Positions 36,329 through 47,813 of a stretch of 64,000 bases of DNA are shown here, piece after piece. The translations under genes were made by a program, and so were the position numbers. Each line of letters opens with the position of its first letter. Within the stretch, counting starts at the first letter, position 1. The notes under the pieces were generated by a model. The model was not told the DNA's origin, did not search any database, and worked only from the letters and a program-made list of their open reading frames with translations. This DNA comes from Gemmatimonadaceae bacterium (lineage in GTDB: Bacteria; Gemmatimonadota; Gemmatimonadetes; Gemmatimonadales; Gemmatimonadaceae): positions 1 to 64,000 of the forward strand of contig JADZDM010000024.1 in NCBI GenBank assembly GCA_020851035.1, given 5' to 3'.

Positions 36329-37306
36329 ATGACCCAGACACGCGCGATTGACGCCACGGCCGAGGATCCCGCAGCCGTCGCCGCCTTCGAGGCCCGCATC
36401 GCCCGCGGCGAGAGCATCGAGCCGAAGGACTGGATGCCGCAGCGGTACCGCCAGCAGCTGATCCGCATGATGTCGCAGCATGCGCACAGCGAGATCGTCG
36501 GCATGCTGCCCGAGGGGAACTGGATCACGCGCGCCCCGTCGCTGCGCCGCAAGGTCGGCCTGATCGCGAAGGTGCAGGACGAGGGCGGGCACGGCCTCTA
36601 CATCTACTGCGGCGTGGAGACGCTGGGTGTGGATCGCAGCGAGGTGATCGGGCAGCTGCTCGACGGGCGCGCGAAGTACTCCAGTATCTTCAACTATCCC
36701 ACGCTCTCGTGGGCCGACATCGGCGTGATCGGCTGGCTGGTGGACGGGGCGGCGATCGTGAACCAGACGGTGCTGGCGAAGGCGTCGTACGGGCCGTATG
36801 CGCGGGCGATGATCCGCATCTGCAAGGAAGAGAACTTCCACAAGCGCCAGGGCTACGAGATCGTGGCCACGCTGGCGGCGGGCACGCCGGCGCAGAAGGC
36901 CATGGTGCAGGATGCGGTGAACCGCTTCTGGTGGCCGTCGCTGATGATGTTCGGGCCGAGCGACACCGACTCGCCGAACACGGCGGAGCTGATCCGCTGG
37001 CAGGTGAAGCGGAAGACGAACGACGAGCTGCGCCAGCGCTTCGTGAACCTGACGGTGCCGCAGGCGGCGGCGGTGGGGCTCACGCTCCCCGACCCGGCGC
37101 TGCGCTACGACGAGGCGACGGAGGACTGGCACTTCGGCGAGATCGACTGGTCGGAGTTCCACCAGGTGGTGCGGGGCAACGGGCAGTGCAACCGCGAGCG
37201 CCTCGAGGCGCGGCGGGCCGCGGAACGGGAGGGGGCATGGGTGCGCGAGGCCGCGATGGCCTACGCCGCGAAGCAGCGCACGAACGACACATCGGCCGCA
37301 GCGTGA
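36329..37306 (+). CDS. paaA: Phenylacetyl-CoA epoxidase catalytic subunit
   Basis: The protein is 325 aa, the usual PaaA length. It is a ferritin-like helical protein with the diiron ligand motifs [11 protein letters not shown] and [13 protein letters not shown], the [21 protein letters not shown] segment, and [15 protein letters not shown]. Together with PaaB, PaaC and the reductase PaaE it epoxidises the ring of phenylacetyl-CoA with O2. The start ATG lies right behind a possible promoter. The PaaB frame starts 20 bases after the stop. Confidence 0.96.
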
Positions 37307-37325: not shown

Positions 37326-37655
37326 ATGAGCGCGAACACGGAGGTGTCGGCCCAGGCCGCGACGATCCCCGCAGACGGCCAGTGGCCGCTCTGGTAGGTC
37401 TTCACGCAGAGTGAGCAGGGGGCGCCGCACGAGCATGCGGGGTCGCTGCACGCGGTGGATGCCGAGCAGGCGATGCAGAATGCGCGCGACGTGTACGCGC
37501 GCCGCGGCGGCGTGATCTCGCTGTGGGTGGTGCCCGGTGGCGCCATCACGGCCTCCAGCCCCGGCGATGCCGGCCCGCTGTTCGATCCGGGCGCCGACAA
37601 GGCCTACCGTCACCCGCAGTTCTACCGCGTGCCGCGCGGCGTGCGCGTCTTTTGA
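37326..37655 (+). pseudogene. paaB: paaB with an in-frame amber codon
   Basis: The frame from the ATG at 37326 encodes a full-length PaaB (109 sense codons) except for TAG at codon 24 (37395-37397). It reads WPLW-stop-VFTQSEQGAPHEHAGSLHA and continues to YRHPQFYRVPRGVRVF and a TGA. In PaaB this position is Glu in the conserved WPLYEVF, so a single GAG-to-TAG change explains it. Both sides are otherwise perfectly conserved and in one frame. The options are a recent null mutation, a sequencing error or amber readthrough. Restart at the GTG at 37455 would lose about 40 residues. PaaB bridges PaaA and PaaC in the epoxidase complex. Confidence 0.9.
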
Positions 37656-38455
37656 GCAGCGCGCCGTTTTCCGTGGTGCCGGCCCCGGCACCCCCCGTGC
37701 ATGCGCTGCTCGAGTACCTGCTGCGGCTTGGCGACGACCGCCTGGTGCTTGGCCACCGGGTGAGCGAGTGGTGCGGGCACGGCCCGATCCTCGAGGAGGA
37801 CATCGCGCTCGCCAACGTCGCGCTCGACCTGATCGGGCAGGCCACCATGCTGCTCCGCCTCGCCGGCGAGGTGGAAGGGCAGGGGCGTGACGAGGATGCG
37901 CTGGCCTACTGGCGCGAGGCGGTGGAGTTCCGGAACTGCCTGCTCGTGGAACAGCCGAACGGCGACTTCGCGCAGACGATCGTGCGGCAGTTCCTGTTCG
38001 ACGTGCAGGCGGTGGTGCTGCTCGACGCGCTCACGCGGGGCACGCACGCGGGGCTGGCCGCCATCGCCGGCAAGGCGGTGAAGGAGGCGAAGTACCATGT
38101 GCGCCACAGCGGCGACTGGATGCTCAAGCTGGGCGACGGCACCGAGGAGAGTCACCGCCGGGTGCAGCGCGCGCTGGACGACCTCTGGCGCTTCACCCCG
38201 GAGCTGTTCGCCGTGGATGCGGTCGACCGCGAGATGATCGCCGCCGGGATCGCGCCGGATCCGGTGGCCCTGCAGGGGCAGTGGCTGGCCATCGTGCGTG
38301 ACGTGCTCGCGCGTGCCACGCTCGTGCTGCCCGCCGACGCCCCGCCCGCCGCCAGTCCGCGCGGGGCCCGGCAGGGCGCCCATTCGGAACACCTGGGGCA
38401 CCTGCTGGCCGAGATGCAGATCGTGGCACGGTCGCACCCGGGCGCCACGTGGTAG
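37652..38455 (+). CDS. paaC: Phenylacetyl-CoA epoxidase structural subunit
   Basis: The protein is about 267 aa starting from the TTG at 37652, which overlaps the paaB TGA (TTGA), so its translation would normally be coupled to paaB. The ferritin-like PaaC fold has HRVSEWCGHGPILEEDIALANVALD, EFRNCLLVEQPNGDFAQTIVRQ and VKEAKYHVRHSGDWMLKLGDGT. It scaffolds PaaA and lacks a working iron site in known relatives. If the paaB amber codon really stops ribosomes, polarity on this gene would be expected. Confidence 0.95.
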   Translation: MSSAPFSVVPAPAPPVHALLEYLLRLGDDRLVLGHRVSEWCGHGPILEEDIALANVALDLIGQATMLLRLAGEVEGQGRDEDALAYWREAVEFRNCLLVEQPNGDFAQTIVRQFLFDVQAVVLLDALTRGTHAGLAAIAGKAVKEAKYHVRHSGDWMLKLGDGTEESHRRVQRALDDLWRFTPELFAVDAVDREMIAAGIAPDPVALQGQWLAIVRDVLARATLVLPADAPPAASPRGARQGAHSEHLGHLLAEMQIVARSHPGATW

Positions 38456-38459
38456 CGGC

Positions 38460-38990
38460 GTGAGTGGCGGCGGGGCGGGTGGCAGGCCCGCCGCGGCGAT
38501 CCCGACGCGGGACGAGATCCTCGCCATCCTCGACACGGTGAAGGATCCCGAGGTGCCGGTGCTCAGCGTGCGCGACCTGGGTGTGGTGCGCGACGTGACG
38601 GTCGGCGAGACGGGCGCCATCACCGTGACGGTCACGCCGACCTACTCCGGCTGTCCCGCGATCCTCGTGATCGAGCAGGACATCACCGCCGCGATCATCG
38701 CCGCCGGCCACGGCCCGGTGACCGTGCGCACCACGTTCACGCCGGCGTGGAGCACCGACTGGATCTCCGACGACGCCCGTGCGCGCCTCAAGGCCTACGG
38801 CATCGCCCCGCCCGGCCGCACCGAGCAGGGCGGCCTGGTGCAGCTCATGCGCGCACGGCGCACGGTCCAGTGCCCATTCTGCGATTCACTCGAGACGGAA
38901 GTCCGCAGCGAGTTCGGGAGCACCGCATGCAAGTCGCTCTGCTGGTGCCGGTCCTGCCGTCAGCCGTTCGAGGAGTTCAAGGCGATCTGA
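38460..38990 (+). CDS. paaD: PaaD-type iron-sulfur maturation factor
   Basis: The protein is 176 aa from a GTG. A MIP18/DUF59 domain (ILDTVKDPEVPVLSVRDLGVV, then YSGCPAILVIEQDI) is followed by a C-terminal zinc-ribbon-like cysteine cluster (CPFC, then CKSLCWCRSC). PaaD is thought to help assemble the Fe-S centre of the reductase PaaE. No paaE follows here; the next 230 bases hold an inverted-repeat element and then a convergent gene. Confidence 0.94.
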   Translation: MSGGGAGGRPAAAIPTRDEILAILDTVKDPEVPVLSVRDLGVVRDVTVGETGAITVTVTPTYSGCPAILVIEQDITAAIIAAGHGPVTVRTTFTPAWSTDWISDDARARLKAYGIAPPGRTEQGGLVQLMRARRTVQCPFCDSLETEVRSEFGSTACKSLCWCRSCRQPFEEFKAI

Positions 38991-39228: not shown

Positions 39229-41361
39229 CTACGTGCGCAACAGCGCATCGATGGCCGCACCGATGCGCGCGGCGTCAGGCAGGACCGCAGCGAGCAGCGA
39301 TTCGTGGTACGGCATCGGCACGTCGCGCACGGCGAGCCGCTCGATGGGGGCGTCGAGGAACCAGAAGGCGTCCTGCGCCAGCACCGCCGCGATCTCGGCG
39401 CCGAAGCCGGCGGTCAGGGTGTCCTCGTGCACGACGAGGCACTTCCCGGTGCGGCGGACGCTCTCGAGGACGGCCTCGCGGTCCCAGGGCGCGATGGTGC
39501 GCAGGTCGAGCAGGTCCACTGCGCCGGGGAACTGTGCGGCGGCCTGGGCGCAGCGGTGGACCATCGCGCCCCAGCTCACGACCGTCACGTCGTCCCCGTG
39601 GAGCAGGCGGCTGGCGCGGCCGAACGGCAGCACGTAGCTGTCGCCGGGGTAGCGCGCGCTGCCGTCGCTGGTCATCAGCAGCGAGCGGTGCTCGAAGAAG
39701 ATCGTCGGATTGCCGCTGCGCATCGCGGCGCGCAGCAGGCCGCTGGCGTCGGCGGCGTTCGACGGCATCGCCACCTGCCAGCCCGGCGTGTGCGCCCACG
39801 TCACCTCGCCCGAGAGCGAGTGCCAGGGGTCGCCCACGTCCTTGCCGAAGCCGCCCGGCATCCGCACCACGATCGGCGCGCAGAACTGGTTCGCCGTGCG
39901 CCAGCGCATCGTGCCGCAGTTGTTGAGCTGCTCGTGCGCGGGGTCGGCGTACTTCCGGAACTGGATCTCCGCCACCGGCACCAGGCCGTTCACCGCCATG
40001 CCCACCGCACGCCCGATGATGCCCTCCTCGGAGAGGCTGGTGTCGAACACGCGATCGGCACCGAAGCGCTTCTGCAGCCCCTCGGTGACCAGGTGCACGC
40101 CTCCCTTGCGCCCCACGTCCTCGCCGAACACCAGCACCCGCGGGTTCGCGGCCAGCTCCGACGCCAGCGTGCGCCGGATCGACTCCGCCACGCGCACCAT
40201 GTCGCCGTCGGCATCGGGCACGTCGGTGGCGGGCAGCAGGTCGCGCTGCGCCGGCGACTGCCCGCCGAACGCGCGCACGTCGGTGTCACGCGGCGGTTCC
40301 TCGTACACGAAGCGATGCACGTCGGCGGGCTCGGGGGTGCGCCGCTCGCGGGCGGCCGCCACGCCGGCGTCCACGTCGCGCGCCACCTGCTGCTCCAGCG
40401 CCGCCCACTCGGCGTCCGACAGCAGGGCCGGCACCAGGTGTGCTCGCAGCCGCGGCAGGGGATCACGGGCGCGATCGGCCTCCACCTCGTCATCCGAGCG
40501 ATACCCCTTCTGGTTGTCCGGCCCGGAGTGGCTCGACAGGCGCGGCACGGTGAGCCGCACCAGCGCCGGCCCGGCGCCGCTGCGCACGTGCGCCACGCAC
40601 TCGGCCAGCAGCGGTGCGGCGTCGGTGGGCACGGAACCGTCTCCGCTGCGCACCAGCAGGTTGCCGAACGACGCGAGGTTGGCGCTGATGTCGCCGCCGG
40701 GCGTCTGCATCCCGCCCTGCACCGAGATCCCGAGCCCGTTGTCCTCGATGTAGAAGAGCATCGGCAGGCGCAGCGTGGTGGCCATCGTCAGCGCCGACCA
40801 GAACCCGTTCGTCGCCACACTGGCATCGCCACCCAGCGCCACCGCGATGGCGCCGCCGTATGAGGCGTCGCAGAGCGTGTCGCGGCGGTAGAGGATGGAC
40901 TGCGCCCAGCCGGCGGCCGGCGTGTACTGCGCGCCCACGTCGCCGGCCATCGGCAGCACCGTCACGCCGTTCCATCCCGGGCGATTGCAGACGACGCCGA
41001 TGTCGCGGCCATCACTGAAGCCGCCGGCACGTCCCAGCGGGCTGCCGTGTGCGTCCTCGATCGACAGTCCCACCGAGAGCAGCACCGGCCGCGACCGGTA
41101 GTAGGCGCCCACGCCATCGTGCGGGTGCCCCAGCAGCGAGCCCAGGATGCACTGGCTCATGTCGTGACCGCGGGCCGAGAACTGGTACAGCACCTGGTGT
41201 GCACGCGGCACGCTGGCGCGGTTCCGGTTGAGCGCCTCCTCGAGGTCGTCCAGCGCGCGCGACACCAGCGTGTGGTACGCGATGCGGTGCCAGTCGAAGC
41301 GGGTGTCCACCGGCGGGCCGGCGTGGCCGGCATGGGCGCTGTCTGCTGCGGCGTGCGTCAA
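39229..41361 (-). CDS. Fused alpha/beta 2-oxoacid dehydrogenase E1 (branched-chain type)
   Basis: The protein is about 710 aa from the TTG at 41361; an in-frame ATG at 41484 is possible but adds non-conserved Arg/Pro-rich residues. The N-terminal half is the E1 alpha fold, with the thiamine-diphosphate region GGDASVATNGFWSALTMA and IEDNGLGIS. The C-terminal half is E1 beta, with RVLVFGEDVGRKGGVHLVT, DTSLSEEGIIGRAVGMA and WDREAVLESV. Separate subunits are the norm in many bacteria, while fused ones occur in several phyla. It would decarboxylate branched-chain 2-oxoacids; no E2 or E3 gene is near. It is inverted between two paa blocks. Confidence 0.9.
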   Translation of the reverse strand: MTHAAADSAHAGHAGPPVDTRFDWHRIAYHTLVSRALDDLEEALNRNRASVPRAHQVLYQFSARGHDMSQCILGSLLGHPHDGVGAYYRSRPVLLSVGLSIEDAHGSPLGRAGGFSDGRDIGVVCNRPGWNGVTVLPMAGDVGAQYTPAAGWAQSILYRRDTLCDASYGGAIAVALGGDASVATNGFWSALTMATTLRLPMLFYIEDNGLGISVQGGMQTPGGDISANLASFGNLLVRSGDGSVPTDAAPLLAECVAHVRSGAGPALVRLTVPRLSSHSGPDNQKGYRSDDEVEADRARDPLPRLRAHLVPALLSDAEWAALEQQVARDVDAGVAAARERRTPEPADVHRFVYEEPPRDTDVRAFGGQSPAQRDLLPATDVPDADGDMVRVAESIRRTLASELAANPRVLVFGEDVGRKGGVHLVTEGLQKRFGADRVFDTSLSEEGIIGRAVGMAVNGLVPVAEIQFRKYADPAHEQLNNCGTMRWRTANQFCAPIVVRMPGGFGKDVGDPWHSLSGEVTWAHTPGWQVAMPSNAADASGLLRAAMRSGNPTIFFEHRSLLMTSDGSARYPGDSYVLPFGRASRLLHGDDVTVVSWGAMVHRCAQAAAQFPGAVDLLDLRTIAPWDREAVLESVRRTGKCLVVHEDTLTAGFGAEIAAVLAQDAFWFLDAPIERLAVRDVPMPYHESLLAAVLPDAARIGAAIDALLRT

Positions 41362-41535
41362 CGGAATCGGGAAGGGGCGGCGGAGCCGCGTCGGCGCGAA
41401 ATCTGGGCACGCGCGCCCCCTGCCGGGAGGCGCAGACGGCGCGGGTCGTGCCCGATGCACGGCCGTATATTGCACGACGCGCATCGCGGCGGCATGCCGC
41501 GGTCCCCCCGTCCCTGCACCGCCACTCGGTTCCCG

Positions 41536-42327: not shown

Positions 42328-43512
42328 ATGGCTGACCCGGGGCTGGTGATCGGCGTGGTGGGGGCGGGCGCGATGGGCAGCGGGATCGCACAGGTGGCCG
42401 CGATGGCCGGCCACCGCGTGGTGCTGGGTGACGCGCACGGCGACGCGCTGCAGCGGGCACGGGCCGCCATCACCGTGGCGCTGATGCGTGACGTGGCGAA
42501 GGGCCGCATGGCCGACACCGCGGCCAGCGAGGTGCTCTCGCGCATCACGGACGCCGGTGACCTGGCCATGGGACACGGGGCCTACGCGGAGTGCGGGGTC
42601 GTGATCGAGGCCGTGGCCGAGGACCTCGCGGTGAAGATGACGCTCTTCGACGCGCTCGAGCGCGAGGTGACGCCGGACTGCATCCTGGCCACCAACACCT
42701 CGTCGCTCCCCGTGGCGGCGATCGCCGGCCGCTGCCGGCACGGCGCACGGGTGCTGGGCATCCACTTCTTCAATCCCGCCGTGGTGATGCCGCTGGTGGA
42801 GATCATCCCCGCCATCACCACCGATCCGTCGGTGACCACGCGCGCACGGGCGCTGGTGGATTCGTGGCGGAAGGTGACCGTGGTGGCGCAGGACACGCCG
42901 GGCTTCATCGTGAACCGCATCGCGCGGCCGTTCTACGGCGAGGCCCTGCGGCTGCTGGAGGAGGGCATCGCCGACGTGCCGACGATCGACTGGGCGATGC
43001 GCGAGATCGGCGGGTTCCGCATGGGCCCGTTCGAGCTGATGGACTTCATCGGGCACGACATCAACTTCGCGGTCACGCAGAGTGTCTACGACGGGTTCTT
43101 CCAGGACCCGCGCTACCGGCCGTCGCTCACGCAGCAGCGGCTGGTGCAGGCGGGGTTCCTGGGCCGCAAGCGCATGCGCGGGTTCTACGACTACGCCGAC
43201 GGGGCCGTGCGGCCCGCCGCCACCGAGGATCCCGTGCTCGGGCGCGCGATCGTGGACCGGGTGCTGGCCATGCTGGTGAACGAGGCGGTGGACGCCGTGT
43301 ACCTGCGCGTGGCATCACCAGCCGACATCGAACTCGCCATGACGCGCGGCGTGAACTACCCGAAGGGCCTGCTGGCGTGGGGTGACGAGGTCGGCCCCGC
43401 CGCCGTGCTCGCGCGGCTGGATGCACTGCGCGACGAGTACGGCGAGGATCGCTACCGCGCCAGCGTGCTGCTGCGGCAGCGCGTGCGCGATGGCCGGGCG
43501 CTGCTGGCATGA
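42328..43512 (+). CDS. paaH: 3-hydroxyadipyl-CoA / 3-hydroxyacyl-CoA dehydrogenase
   Basis: The protein is 394 aa. The Rossmann fold begins GVVGAGAMGSGIAQVAAMAG. The catalytic region has LGIHFFNPAVVMPLVEI and the His of that motif, and the C-terminal domain has DTPGFIVNRIARPFYGEALRL and FRMGPFELMDFIGHDINFA. E. coli PaaH is longer (about 475 aa); this one keeps a second 3HCDH-like segment after residue 285. It acts in the last beta-oxidation steps of phenylacetate catabolism. Its stop overlaps the ATG of paaI. Confidence 0.93.
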   Translation: MADPGLVIGVVGAGAMGSGIAQVAAMAGHRVVLGDAHGDALQRARAAITVALMRDVAKGRMADTAASEVLSRITDAGDLAMGHGAYAECGVVIEAVAEDLAVKMTLFDALEREVTPDCILATNTSSLPVAAIAGRCRHGARVLGIHFFNPAVVMPLVEIIPAITTDPSVTTRARALVDSWRKVTVVAQDTPGFIVNRIARPFYGEALRLLEEGIADVPTIDWAMREIGGFRMGPFELMDFIGHDINFAVTQSVYDGFFQDPRYRPSLTQQRLVQAGFLGRKRMRGFYDYADGAVRPAATEDPVLGRAIVDRVLAMLVNEAVDAVYLRVASPADIELAMTRGVNYPKGLLAWGDEVGPAAVLARLDALRDEYGEDRYRASVLLRQRVRDGRALLA

Positions 43513-43961
43513 GCGCCCCACGCACACCGGCGCAGGAGGCCCGCACCGCACAGGTGCTCGCGGCCATGCTGGAGACGGATGCCTTCAGCCGCTGGCTCGG
43601 CATCCGGGTGGTGTCGGCGGGTGCGGGCCGCAGCGAGCTGCACATGCACATCCGCCATGACATGGTGAACGGCTTCGGCGCCGCGCACGGCGGGATCACC
43701 TACTCGCTGGCCGACAGCGCGCTGGCGTTCGCATGCAACGGCGGCGAACACGTCACGGTGGCGGTCGACAACCAGGTCTCGTATCCCGCGCCGGTGCACG
43801 TCGGTGACGACCTGGTCGCGACCGCCGAGGAGGAGTCGCGCGGCGGGCGCCTGGGGTTCTACCGCGTGACCGTCCGCAACCAGCACGGCACCGTGGTCGC
43901 GCTCTTCCGCGGCACGGTCTATCGCACCAGCACCCTGCACCCCACCGGACCCGCATCGTGA
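43509..43961 (+). CDS. paaI: Hotdog-fold acyl-CoA thioesterase
   Basis: The protein is 150 aa. The hotdog helix motif reads HDMVNGFGAAHGGITYSLADSALAFA, matching PaaI, with the catalytic Asp in LADSA. It recycles CoA from dead-end intermediates such as hydroxyphenylacetyl-CoA. It is translationally coupled at both ends (ATGA upstream, GTGA downstream). Confidence 0.95.
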   Translation: MSAPRTPAQEARTAQVLAAMLETDAFSRWLGIRVVSAGAGRSELHMHIRHDMVNGFGAAHGGITYSLADSALAFACNGGEHVTVAVDNQVSYPAPVHVGDDLVATAEEESRGGRLGFYRVTVRNQHGTVVALFRGTVYRTSTLHPTGPAS

Positions 43962-45169
43962 CCGACGCCTTCCTCGTCGATGGCCTCCGGACGGCCATCG
44001 GGAACCTCGGTGGCCAGCTCAGCGAAGTGCGCGCGGACGACATGGCGGCGCACGTGATCGCCGCGCTCGTCGCGCGCCATCCGTCGCTCGACCCGGCGCG
44101 CCTCACCGACGTGATCCTCGGCTGCGCCAACCAGGCCGGCGACGACAACCGCAACGTGGCGCGGATGGCGGCGCTGCTGGCCGGCCTGCCGGTCACGGTG
44201 CCCGGTGAGACCGTCAACCGACTCTGTGCCTCCGGGATGAGCGCGGTGGCGAACGCCGCGCGTGCCGTGCAGGTGGGTGACGGCGACCTGTACATCGCGG
44301 GCGGCGTCGAGAACATGACCCGCGCGCCGTACGTGCTGTCGAAGGCGGGCAAGCCCTTCGCCCGTGACATGGAGCTGTTCGACACCAGCCTTGGCTGGCG
44401 CTTCGTGAACCCGCGGATGCGTGCCGCACACGGCGTGGACTCCATGGGGCAGACGGCGGAGAACGTGGCGGCGCAGCACGGCATCTCGCGGGCGGACCAG
44501 GACTTGTTCGCGCTGCGCTCGCAGCAGAAGGCCGCGGCGGCGCGCGAGGCGGGGCGGTTCGTGGCCGAGATCAGTGCGGTGGAGATCGCCCAGCGGAAGG
44601 GCGCGCCGAGGGTCGTCGACACCGACGAGTTCCTGCGGCCGGAGACGACGCTCGAGATCCTCGGGAAGCTCACGCCGGCGTTCCGCACGGACGGACAGGG
44701 CTCGGTGACCGCGGGCAACGCCTCGGGATTGAACGATGGCGCGGCGGCGTTGCTCATCGCGTCGGCGGCGGGCGCGCGGGCGATCGGTGCGGCGCCGATG
44801 GCGCGCATCGTGACCACGGCGGTGGCCGGCGTCGAGCCGCGGGTGATGGGCATGGGCCCGGTGCCCGCCACGCAGCTGGCGCTGGCGAAGGCGGGACTGA
44901 CGCTGGCCGACATCGGCGTGATCGAGCTGAACGAGGCGTTCGCGGCCCAGTCGCTCGGCTGCCTGCGCGCGCTTGGCCTGGCCGATGACGACGCCCGCGT
45001 GAATCCCAACGGCGGCGCGATCGCGCTCGGGCACCCGCTGGGGATGAGCGGGGCGCGGTTGCTTCTGACGGCCGCGCACGAGCTGCAGCGCACGCAGCAG
45101 CGGTACGCCCTCGCGACCATGTGCATCGGCGTGGGCCAGGGCATGGCCACCATCCTCGAGCGTGCCTGA
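43958..45169 (+). CDS. paaJ: 3-oxoadipyl-CoA/3-oxo-5,6-didehydrosuberyl-CoA thiolase
   Basis: The protein is 403 aa from a GTG coupled to paaI. Thiolase landmarks are the nucleophilic Cys90 in ETVNRLCASGMSAV, IELNEAFAAQSL, NPNGGAIALGHPLGMSGARL and the second active-site Cys near the end (MCIGVGQGMA). It releases acetyl-CoA in two steps of the pathway. The stop overlaps the ATG of paaY (TGATG). Confidence 0.95.
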   Translation: MTDAFLVDGLRTAIGNLGGQLSEVRADDMAAHVIAALVARHPSLDPARLTDVILGCANQAGDDNRNVARMAALLAGLPVTVPGETVNRLCASGMSAVANAARAVQVGDGDLYIAGGVENMTRAPYVLSKAGKPFARDMELFDTSLGWRFVNPRMRAAHGVDSMGQTAENVAAQHGISRADQDLFALRSQQKAAAAREAGRFVAEISAVEIAQRKGAPRVVDTDEFLRPETTLEILGKLTPAFRTDGQGSVTAGNASGLNDGAAALLIASAAGARAIGAAPMARIVTTAVAGVEPRVMGMGPVPATQLALAKAGLTLADIGVIELNEAFAAQSLGCLRALGLADDDARVNPNGGAIALGHPLGMSGARLLLTAAHELQRTQQRYALATMCIGVGQGMATILERA

Positions 45170-45768
45170 TGGCGAACATCTTTGCGTTCGAGGCGTGGGT
45201 CCCGGTGGTGCACGCGTCGGCGTACGTGCACCCCAACGCCACGGTGACGGGCAACGTCATCATCGGCCGCGACGTGTACGTCGGGCCCGGGGCCGCGATC
45301 CGCGGTGACTTCGGCGGCATCGTGATCGGTGACGGCTGCAACGTGCAGGAGAACTGCACGATCCACATGTTCCCCGGCGTGACCGTGGTGCTGGAGGACG
45401 CGGCGCACATCGGCCACGGGGCCATCGTGCACGGCGCGCGCATCGGTGCGAATGCGCTGATCGGGATGAACGCCGTGATCATGGACAACGCCGTCATCGG
45501 GGCCGGCAGCGTGGTGGGGGCGCTGGCCTTCGTGCCGACCGGCATGCAGGTGCCGCCGCGCTCGGTCGTGGTGGGCAACCCGGCGAAGGTCGTGAAGGAA
45601 GTGAGCGACGAGATGCTGGCGTGGAAGTCGGAGGGCACGGCGCTGTACCAGGCGCTGCCCGCACGCCTGCACGCCACGCTGCGTGCCTGTGAACCGCTGC
45701 GCGAGGTGCCCGCGGATCGCGGCGTGCCCGCATCGACATACCGGAACTGGGGAGAGACCAAGCCGTGA
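45169..45768 (+). CDS. paaY: PaaY-like hexapeptide-repeat thioesterase/gamma-carbonic anhydrase fold
   Basis: The protein is 199 aa. The left-handed beta-helix of hexapeptide repeats runs through residues 10-150 (VHPNATVTGNVIIGRDVYVGPGAA, then IHMFPGVTVVLEDAAHIGHGAI). The His zinc ligands of this fold (CTIHMF, HIGHG) are present, and a C-terminal helix follows. PaaY cleaves a toxic cyclohepta-type CoA ester formed from the pathway aldehyde. The stop overlaps the GTG of paaZ. Confidence 0.92.
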   Translation: MANIFAFEAWVPVVHASAYVHPNATVTGNVIIGRDVYVGPGAAIRGDFGGIVIGDGCNVQENCTIHMFPGVTVVLEDAAHIGHGAIVHGARIGANALIGMNAVIMDNAVIGAGSVVGALAFVPTGMQVPPRSVVVGNPAKVVKEVSDEMLAWKSEGTALYQALPARLHATLRACEPLREVPADRGVPASTYRNWGETKP

Positions 45769-47813
45769 TACGGATGCAGAACTACGCGTACGGCGAGTGG
45801 GTGGCCGGCACCGGCGAAGGCACCCTGCTGCAGAATGCCGTCACCGGCGATGTGGTCGCGACCACGTCGAGCACGGGCCTCGACTTCAAGGGGATGCTGG
45901 AGTACGGGCGCACCGTCGGTGGGCCGACACTGCGCGCGATGACGTTCCACCAGCGCGCGCGCATCCTGAAGGCGTTGGCGCAGCACCTCACCGCGCAGAA
46001 GGACGAGTTCTATCGCATCTCGTCGTGGACCGGTGCCACGAAGGGTGACTCGTGGATCGACATCGACGGTGGCGTCGGCACCCTGTTCGCCTATGCCAGT
46101 CGCGGGCGGCGCGAGTTTCCCGATGAGACGTTCTTCGTGGACGGCGCCGTCGAGGGACTGAGCCGCGGCGGCACCTTCATCGGCCGGCACATCTGCGTGC
46201 CGATGGAAGGGGTGGCGGTGCAGATCAACGCCTTCAACTTCCCGGTGTGGGGGATGCTCGAGAAGTTCGCGACGTCGTTCCTCGCCGGCGTGCCGAGCAT
46301 CGTGAAGCCGGCGTCGGTCGGCAGCTTCCTGACGGAGGTGGTGGCGCGGTCGATGGTGAGTTCCGGACTGCTGCCGGTGGGCTCGTTCCAGCTCATCCTG
46401 GGCAGCCCGGGTGACCTGCTCGATCACCTCACCTGCCAGGATTCGGTGGCCTTCACCGGCTCGGCGGCGACGGGCCTCATGCTGCGCAGCAATCCGTCGA
46501 TCCTCGCCAACAGCGTGCGATTCAACCAGGAAGCTGACTCGCTGAACTTCTCGATGCTGGGGCCCGATGCGGCGCCGGGCACCGAGGAGTTCGACCTGTT
46601 CATCAAGGAAGTCTCGCGCGAGATGACGGTGAAGGCGGGGCAGAAGTGCACCGCGATCCGCCGCACGTTCGTGCACGAGAGCATGGTGGACGCGGTGAGT
46701 GCGGCGCTCAGCAGGCGGCTCTCCACCGTGACCATCGGCGATCCGGCACTCGACGGCGTGCGCATGGGCCCACTGGCCGGCCGCGCCCAGGTGCGTGACG
46801 TGCAGCAGAACGTGGACCGGCTGCGCAGTGGTGCGGAACTGGTGTTCGGTGGCAGTGACACGCTCACCGTGGTGGGTGCCGATGCCGGGAAGGGCGCGTT
46901 CTTCGCGCCGGTGCTGCTGTACAGTGGCGATCCGTTCGGTGGCACCCACTCGCACGACATCGAGGCGTTCGGGCCGGTGAACACCATCATGCCGTACAAG
47001 AGCGTGGACGAGGCGATCGCGCTGGCGAAACTCGGCAAGGGAAGCCTCGTCGGCAGCGTGTTCACCAACGACGATGCCGTCGCGCGCCAGATGGCACTCG
47101 GCACGGCGGCGTACCACGGCCGCCTGATGCTTGCGAACCGGCACAGCGCGAAGGAGAGCACCGGGCACGGGTCACCGATGCCCGGGCTTGTGCACGGCGG
47201 GCCTGGTCGTGCCGGCGGAGGCGAGGAGATGGGCGGCGTGCGCGGCGTGATGCACTACATGCAGCGCACCGCCATCCAGGGCTCGCCGCAGGTGGTGACG
47301 GCCGTCACGCGCGAGTGGAGCAAGGGTGCGACCGAGTTGAAGGACCGTATCCACCCGTTCCGCAAGTACTTCGATGAGCTGCGCATCGGCGAGACGTTCA
47401 TCACCCATCGCCGCACCGTGACCGAGGCCGACGTGGTGAACTTCGCCGGTATCAGCGGCGACTATTTCTACGCGCACATGGACGACATCTCGGCCCAGGC
47501 CTCGCTGTTCGGCAAGCGGGTGGCGCACGGGTATTTCGTGCTCTCGGCGGCGGCGGGGTTGTTCGTGGATCCGGCGCCCGGCCCGGTGCTGGCCAACTAC
47601 GGACTGGAGGGCCTGCGCTTCACCAAGCCCGTGTTCATCGGCGACACGATCCAGGCGCGGCTCACCTGCAAGCAGAAGACGCAGAAGGAAGACCGCGAGG
47701 GGCAGGTGCCGCAGGGGGTGGTCCACTGGGACGTGGAGGTCACGAACCAGGATGGGGAGCCGGTGGCGGTGTACACGATCCTGACGCTGGTGGCGCGGCA
47801 GGTGGACGCGTAA
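45765..47813 (+). CDS. paaZ: Bifunctional oxepin-CoA hydrolase / semialdehyde dehydrogenase
   Basis: The protein is 682 aa, the normal PaaZ length. The N-terminal aldehyde dehydrogenase has FNFPVWGMLEKFATSFLAG, the general-base region FNQEADSLN, and the nucleophile Cys in VKAGQKCTAIRR. The C-terminal MaoC-like hydratase has FAGISGDYFYAHMDD and GKRVAHGYFVLS. It opens the oxepin ring and oxidises the aldehyde in one chain. It starts at a GTG coupled to paaY or at the ATG at 45774. It ends the paa cluster. Confidence 0.96.
   Translation: MIRMQNYAYGEWVAGTGEGTLLQNAVTGDVVATTSSTGLDFKGMLEYGRTVGGPTLRAMTFHQRARILKALAQHLTAQKDEFYRISSWTGATKGDSWIDIDGGVGTLFAYASRGRREFPDETFFVDGAVEGLSRGGTFIGRHICVPMEGVAVQINAFNFPVWGMLEKFATSFLAGVPSIVKPASVGSFLTEVVARSMVSSGLLPVGSFQLILGSPGDLLDHLTCQDSVAFTGSAATGLMLRSNPSILANSVRFNQEADSLNFSMLGPDAAPGTEEFDLFIKEVSREMTVKAGQKCTAIRRTFVHESMVDAVSAALSRRLSTVTIGDPALDGVRMGPLAGRAQVRDVQQNVDRLRSGAELVFGGSDTLTVVGADAGKGAFFAPVLLYSGDPFGGTHSHDIEAFGPVNTIMPYKSVDEAIALAKLGKGSLVGSVFTNDDAVARQMALGTAAYHGRLMLANRHSAKESTGHGSPMPGLVHGGPGRAGGGEEMGGVRGVMHYMQRTAIQGSPQVVTAVTREWSKGATELKDRIHPFRKYFDELRIGETFITHRRTVTEADVVNFAGISGDYFYAHMDDISAQASLFGKRVAHGYFVLSAAAGLFVDPAPGPVLANYGLEGLRFTKPVFIGDTIQARLTCKQKTQKEDREGQVPQGVVHWDVEVTNQDGEPVAVYTILTLVARQVDA

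Follow-up and report, generated by a model that had tools for sequence, protein, structure and literature searches.

Within the 1,2-phenylacetyl-CoA epoxidase, PaaB binds PaaA as well as PaaC, and a PaaB dimer links two PaaAC heterodimers; when any one of paaA, B, C, D or E is deleted, the pathway is blocked at the epoxidation step (PMC4498308). Isolated in-frame stops have been reported in bacterial genes with dN/dS below 1, and readthrough has been proposed for them (PMC7918605). Here we examined a paaB frame interrupted by TAG in a stretch of 64,000 nucleotides (the window; positions 1-64000 of contig C24, JADZDM010000024.1) from Gemmatimonadaceae bacterium GCA_020851035.1, a genome of 4.97 Mb in 34 contigs that is 95.7% complete. 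The gene shares with PaaB (TIGR02157/PF06243; 3EGR, 4IIT) whole-profile similarity on either side of the stop and the order paaA-paaB-paaC-paaD, and differs by a single nonsense codon, which stands in place of the invariant Glu in the first of the conserved motifs. With the stops described in PMC7918605 it has in common a single nonsense change and a dN/dS well below 1 elsewhere in the gene; in contrast to them, the paaB stop is private to one genome and bears no sign of persistence through speciation. The stop is of an ordinary sort, nothing new in kind, and being a point mutation confined to one genome it is of little importance.

The paaB frame within the paa cluster

The paaABCD genes are followed further downstream by a PaaH-like gene, paaI, paaJ and paaZ (Table 1), and an enoyl-CoA hydratase open frame is also present in the cluster region. 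All remaining paa genes tested had open frames, ruling out decay of the whole cluster, and the operon was under constraint when compared with the genus mate G002 (dN/dS of 0.067 for paaA and 0.087 for the whole of paaB). Canonical PaaK and PaaE had no match in the genome. Loss of PaaK as pathway decay specific to this genome was rejected, canonical PaaK being absent also from G002 and from most paaB-bearing relatives. Convergent with paaD is a gene for a fused 2-oxoacid dehydrogenase E1 alpha-beta (39229-41484, minus strand). From this neighbour and the lack of canonical PaaK and PaaE we would guess that phenylpyruvate, through oxidative decarboxylation, may be the source of phenylacetyl-CoA in place of phenylacetate.

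Table 1 Features of the paa region, in window coordinates
Feature	Position	Strand	Evidence
paaA, catalytic subunit of 1,2-phenylacetyl-CoA epoxidase, intact	36329..37306	+	TIGR02156, 502.8 bits, full length
paaB frame, interrupted at codon 24	37326..37655	+	PF06243 and TIGR02157 profiles
In-frame TAG at invariant Glu of paaB	37395..37397	+	Glu in 99/99 relatives
paaC, structural subunit, intact, own stop TAG	37652..38455	+	TIGR02158, 302.2 bits
paaD, intact	38460..38990	+	TIGR02159, 190.8 bits
PaaH-like 3-hydroxyacyl-CoA dehydrogenase, open frame	42328..43512	+	TIGR02279, 443 bits, under model cut-off of 669.4
paaI thioesterase, intact	43509..43961	+	TIGR02286, 130.5 bits
paaJ-type 3-oxoadipyl-CoA thiolase, intact	43958..45169	+	TIGR02430, 607.3 bits
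paaZ, intact	45765..47813	+	TIGR02278, 979 bits

The paaB frame translates as MSANTEVSAQAATIPADGQWPLW*VFTQSEQ...GVRVF*, in which the internal TAG (first asterisk) is followed by 85 sense codons up to TGA at 37653-37655. Under the standard code this is an interrupted paaB, with no full-length PaaB ORF. When TAG was read as Glu, the product scored 124.8 bits against Pfam PaaB (PF06243; curated cut-off 27), with profile positions 1-88 spanning PaaB residues 19-106, and 105.3 bits against NCBIfam TIGR02157 (curated cut-off 85.45). The nearest PDB homologues of the frame were 3egr and 4iit chain B, both PaaB. A preliminary description of this DNA had presented the paaB frame as complete, with TAG in place of the family's Glu and 85 PaaB-like codons beyond it; both points were borne out, by the residue found in relatives (below) and by profile similarity before and after the stop together with a post-stop dN/dS of about 0.07. 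The motif had been given as WPLYEVF, which needs correction, since this lineage reads WPLWEVF. A start of paaC within the paaB stop, also proposed there, is plausible (TTGA at 37652-37655, the same four bases being found in G002), with GTG at 37673 or 37676 as alternative starts. If the internal stop is true, translation of paaC would be reduced through loss of coupling.

Relatives and the age of the stop

We compared codon 24 across 99 aligned paaB loci drawn from two collections, in which a few genomes were counted twice; the relatives were Gemmatimonadaceae, and those in the public collection are MAGs. The residue was Glu at every locus (GAG in 56, GAA in 43), TAG occurring in 0 of the 99. 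In a search of 395 genomes of the phylum, 1 of the 117 strong PaaB matches (E below 1e-25) had an internal stop, namely the one studied here. The preliminary description had also considered that an intact second paaB might be the expressed copy, and profile and DNA searches of the genome (95.7% complete) found none. With an invariant Glu, a single occurrence in the phylum and no second copy, the paaB stop is beyond chance.

The genus mate G002 has an open paaB frame with GAA at codon 24 and a PaaB 90% identical to this one. The single G to T change suggested earlier suffices if the starting codon was GAG, as in G014, but G002 carries GAA; the ancestral codon was GAG or GAA. In a further congener, G001 (90% complete), no PaaA, PaaB or PaaC was detected. 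The paa pathway therefore seems dispensable in the genus, within which it appears to have been gained or lost.

The part of paaB beyond the stop was strongly conserved in its protein sequence (dN/dS 0.070; 0.054/0.767). Changes in this part, polarised with seven outgroups, comprised 2-3 replacement and 10 silent on this branch and 4-5 replacement and 15 silent on the sister branch, so that the 85 codons carried no replacement excess on this lineage. As a rough estimate, no more than about 15-20% of this lineage's branch after it parted from the sister could have been relaxed (neutral), with a Poisson P below 0.05 beyond that share, a bound which presumes that constraint ended once the stop arose. 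These data do not fit an old pseudogene, and a null allele would therefore have to be young. The substitution pattern of paaB would fit either a young mutation or an error.

Nonsense allele or consensus error

The stop is probably a real and recent single-nucleotide nonsense allele in the only paaB of the genome. Most simply, one substitution in this sole copy would have converted GAG to TAG. Translation would then halt once 23 residues had been made, where the conserved domain begins, and no PaaB would be produced; without PaaB to bridge the PaaAC heterodimers, neither the epoxidase nor the paa cluster would be expected to work in cells bearing the allele. A 23-residue peptide would be unable to join PaaAC, and a true stop thus predicts a null epoxidase. 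We infer that the organism truly carries this base and that PaaB function is lost. The undecayed state of the rest of the cluster counts against a nonsense allele, being expected equally under an error or a functional gene.

The main competing explanation, which we regard as possible but clearly less likely, is that the organism's own paaB is normal and that the base at 37395 arose in the assembly or its consensus, either as an error or as the base of a minority strain; the assembly is probably metagenomic. The assembly is in 34 contigs and 95.7% complete, the public relatives are MAGs, paaB shows no other sign of decay in a constrained operon, and a single substitution explains the stop, all of which would be consistent with an error. 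The surroundings of the site are, however, free of frame problems, and the low count of isolated in-frame stops argues against an error-ridden consensus. Scanning 1.56 of the 4.97 Mb (31%) by codon usage gave 33 candidate in-frame stops, two of which looked genuine by eye: the paaB TAG and, at C25:55055, a TGA within a gene for a GH106 alpha-L-rhamnosidase, each an isolated single change. By eye, nearly all of the candidates were same-frame junctions of adjacent genes or antisense frames, and the scan agreed with the earlier claim that no further gene of the window has an in-frame stop. The rhamnosidase TGA implies a low rate of isolated nonsense events in this genome. Two such stops in 1.56 Mb are nothing unusual as nonsense differences, and a low rate of consensus error would explain them equally well. 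Use of phenylacetyl-CoA should accordingly not be scored for this genome before a read check at 37395.

The rhamnosidase gene itself (L081:14879-18259, minus strand) carries its TGA at a Trp-like position (VVANT*QNRFVGD; C-terminal sugar-binding domain).

Decoding of UAG and re-initiation

The preliminary description had listed a fresh null mutation, an assembly error and programmed readthrough or amber decoding as the three cases; the first two are those favoured by our analysis, and the third found no specific evidence. Programmed or tolerated readthrough of UAG, giving low-level full-length PaaB, would account for the constrained post-stop frame, has been proposed for constrained stop-bearing bacterial genes (PMC7918605), and may be aided by the base following the paaB TAG, a G, a context in which termination in E. 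coli is reported to be less accurate (PMC11126739). We nevertheless consider it improbable, as the same constraint is expected of a young mutation and the stop is kept in no relative. TAG is a normal terminator in this genome, ending 85 of 477 called genes (0.77 Mb sampled), among them paaC of the same operon, where readthrough would append 393 residues. This usage, together with an intact RF1 (prfA, 458 bits), ruled out genome-wide recoding. A suppressor tRNA with a CUA anticodon, raised in the preliminary description, was searched for genome-wide: 0 of the 42 tRNAs above the Rfam cut-off read UAG (CUA or UUA anticodon), all having sense anticodons by ARAGORN, and none of four matches under threshold was recognised by ARAGORN as a tRNA (genome 95.7% complete). 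The 100 nt past the stop folded no better than shuffled sequences (z = +0.95), giving no sign of a stimulatory 3' RNA structure. Taken together, these results lend no support to recoding, a suppressor or conserved readthrough. It is more doubtful still that a near-cognate tRNA reads the UAG at a low, perhaps condition-dependent rate and so throttles epoxidase assembly; if readthrough were true, this would be a stop codon tuning a catabolic complex.

Re-initiation at the in-frame GTG 37455 or ATG 37473 to yield a shortened working PaaB is the least credible explanation, since neither start has a convincing ribosome-binding site by eye and both lie at least 20 codons past WPLWEVF, within the conserved domain.

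The weak tRNA matches on contigs C7 and C33, rejected as suppressors, looked by eye like degenerate remnants of tRNA-Ser (L063, C7:33450-33800) and tRNA-Gly (L064, C33:81150-81450), and are possibly old integration sites.
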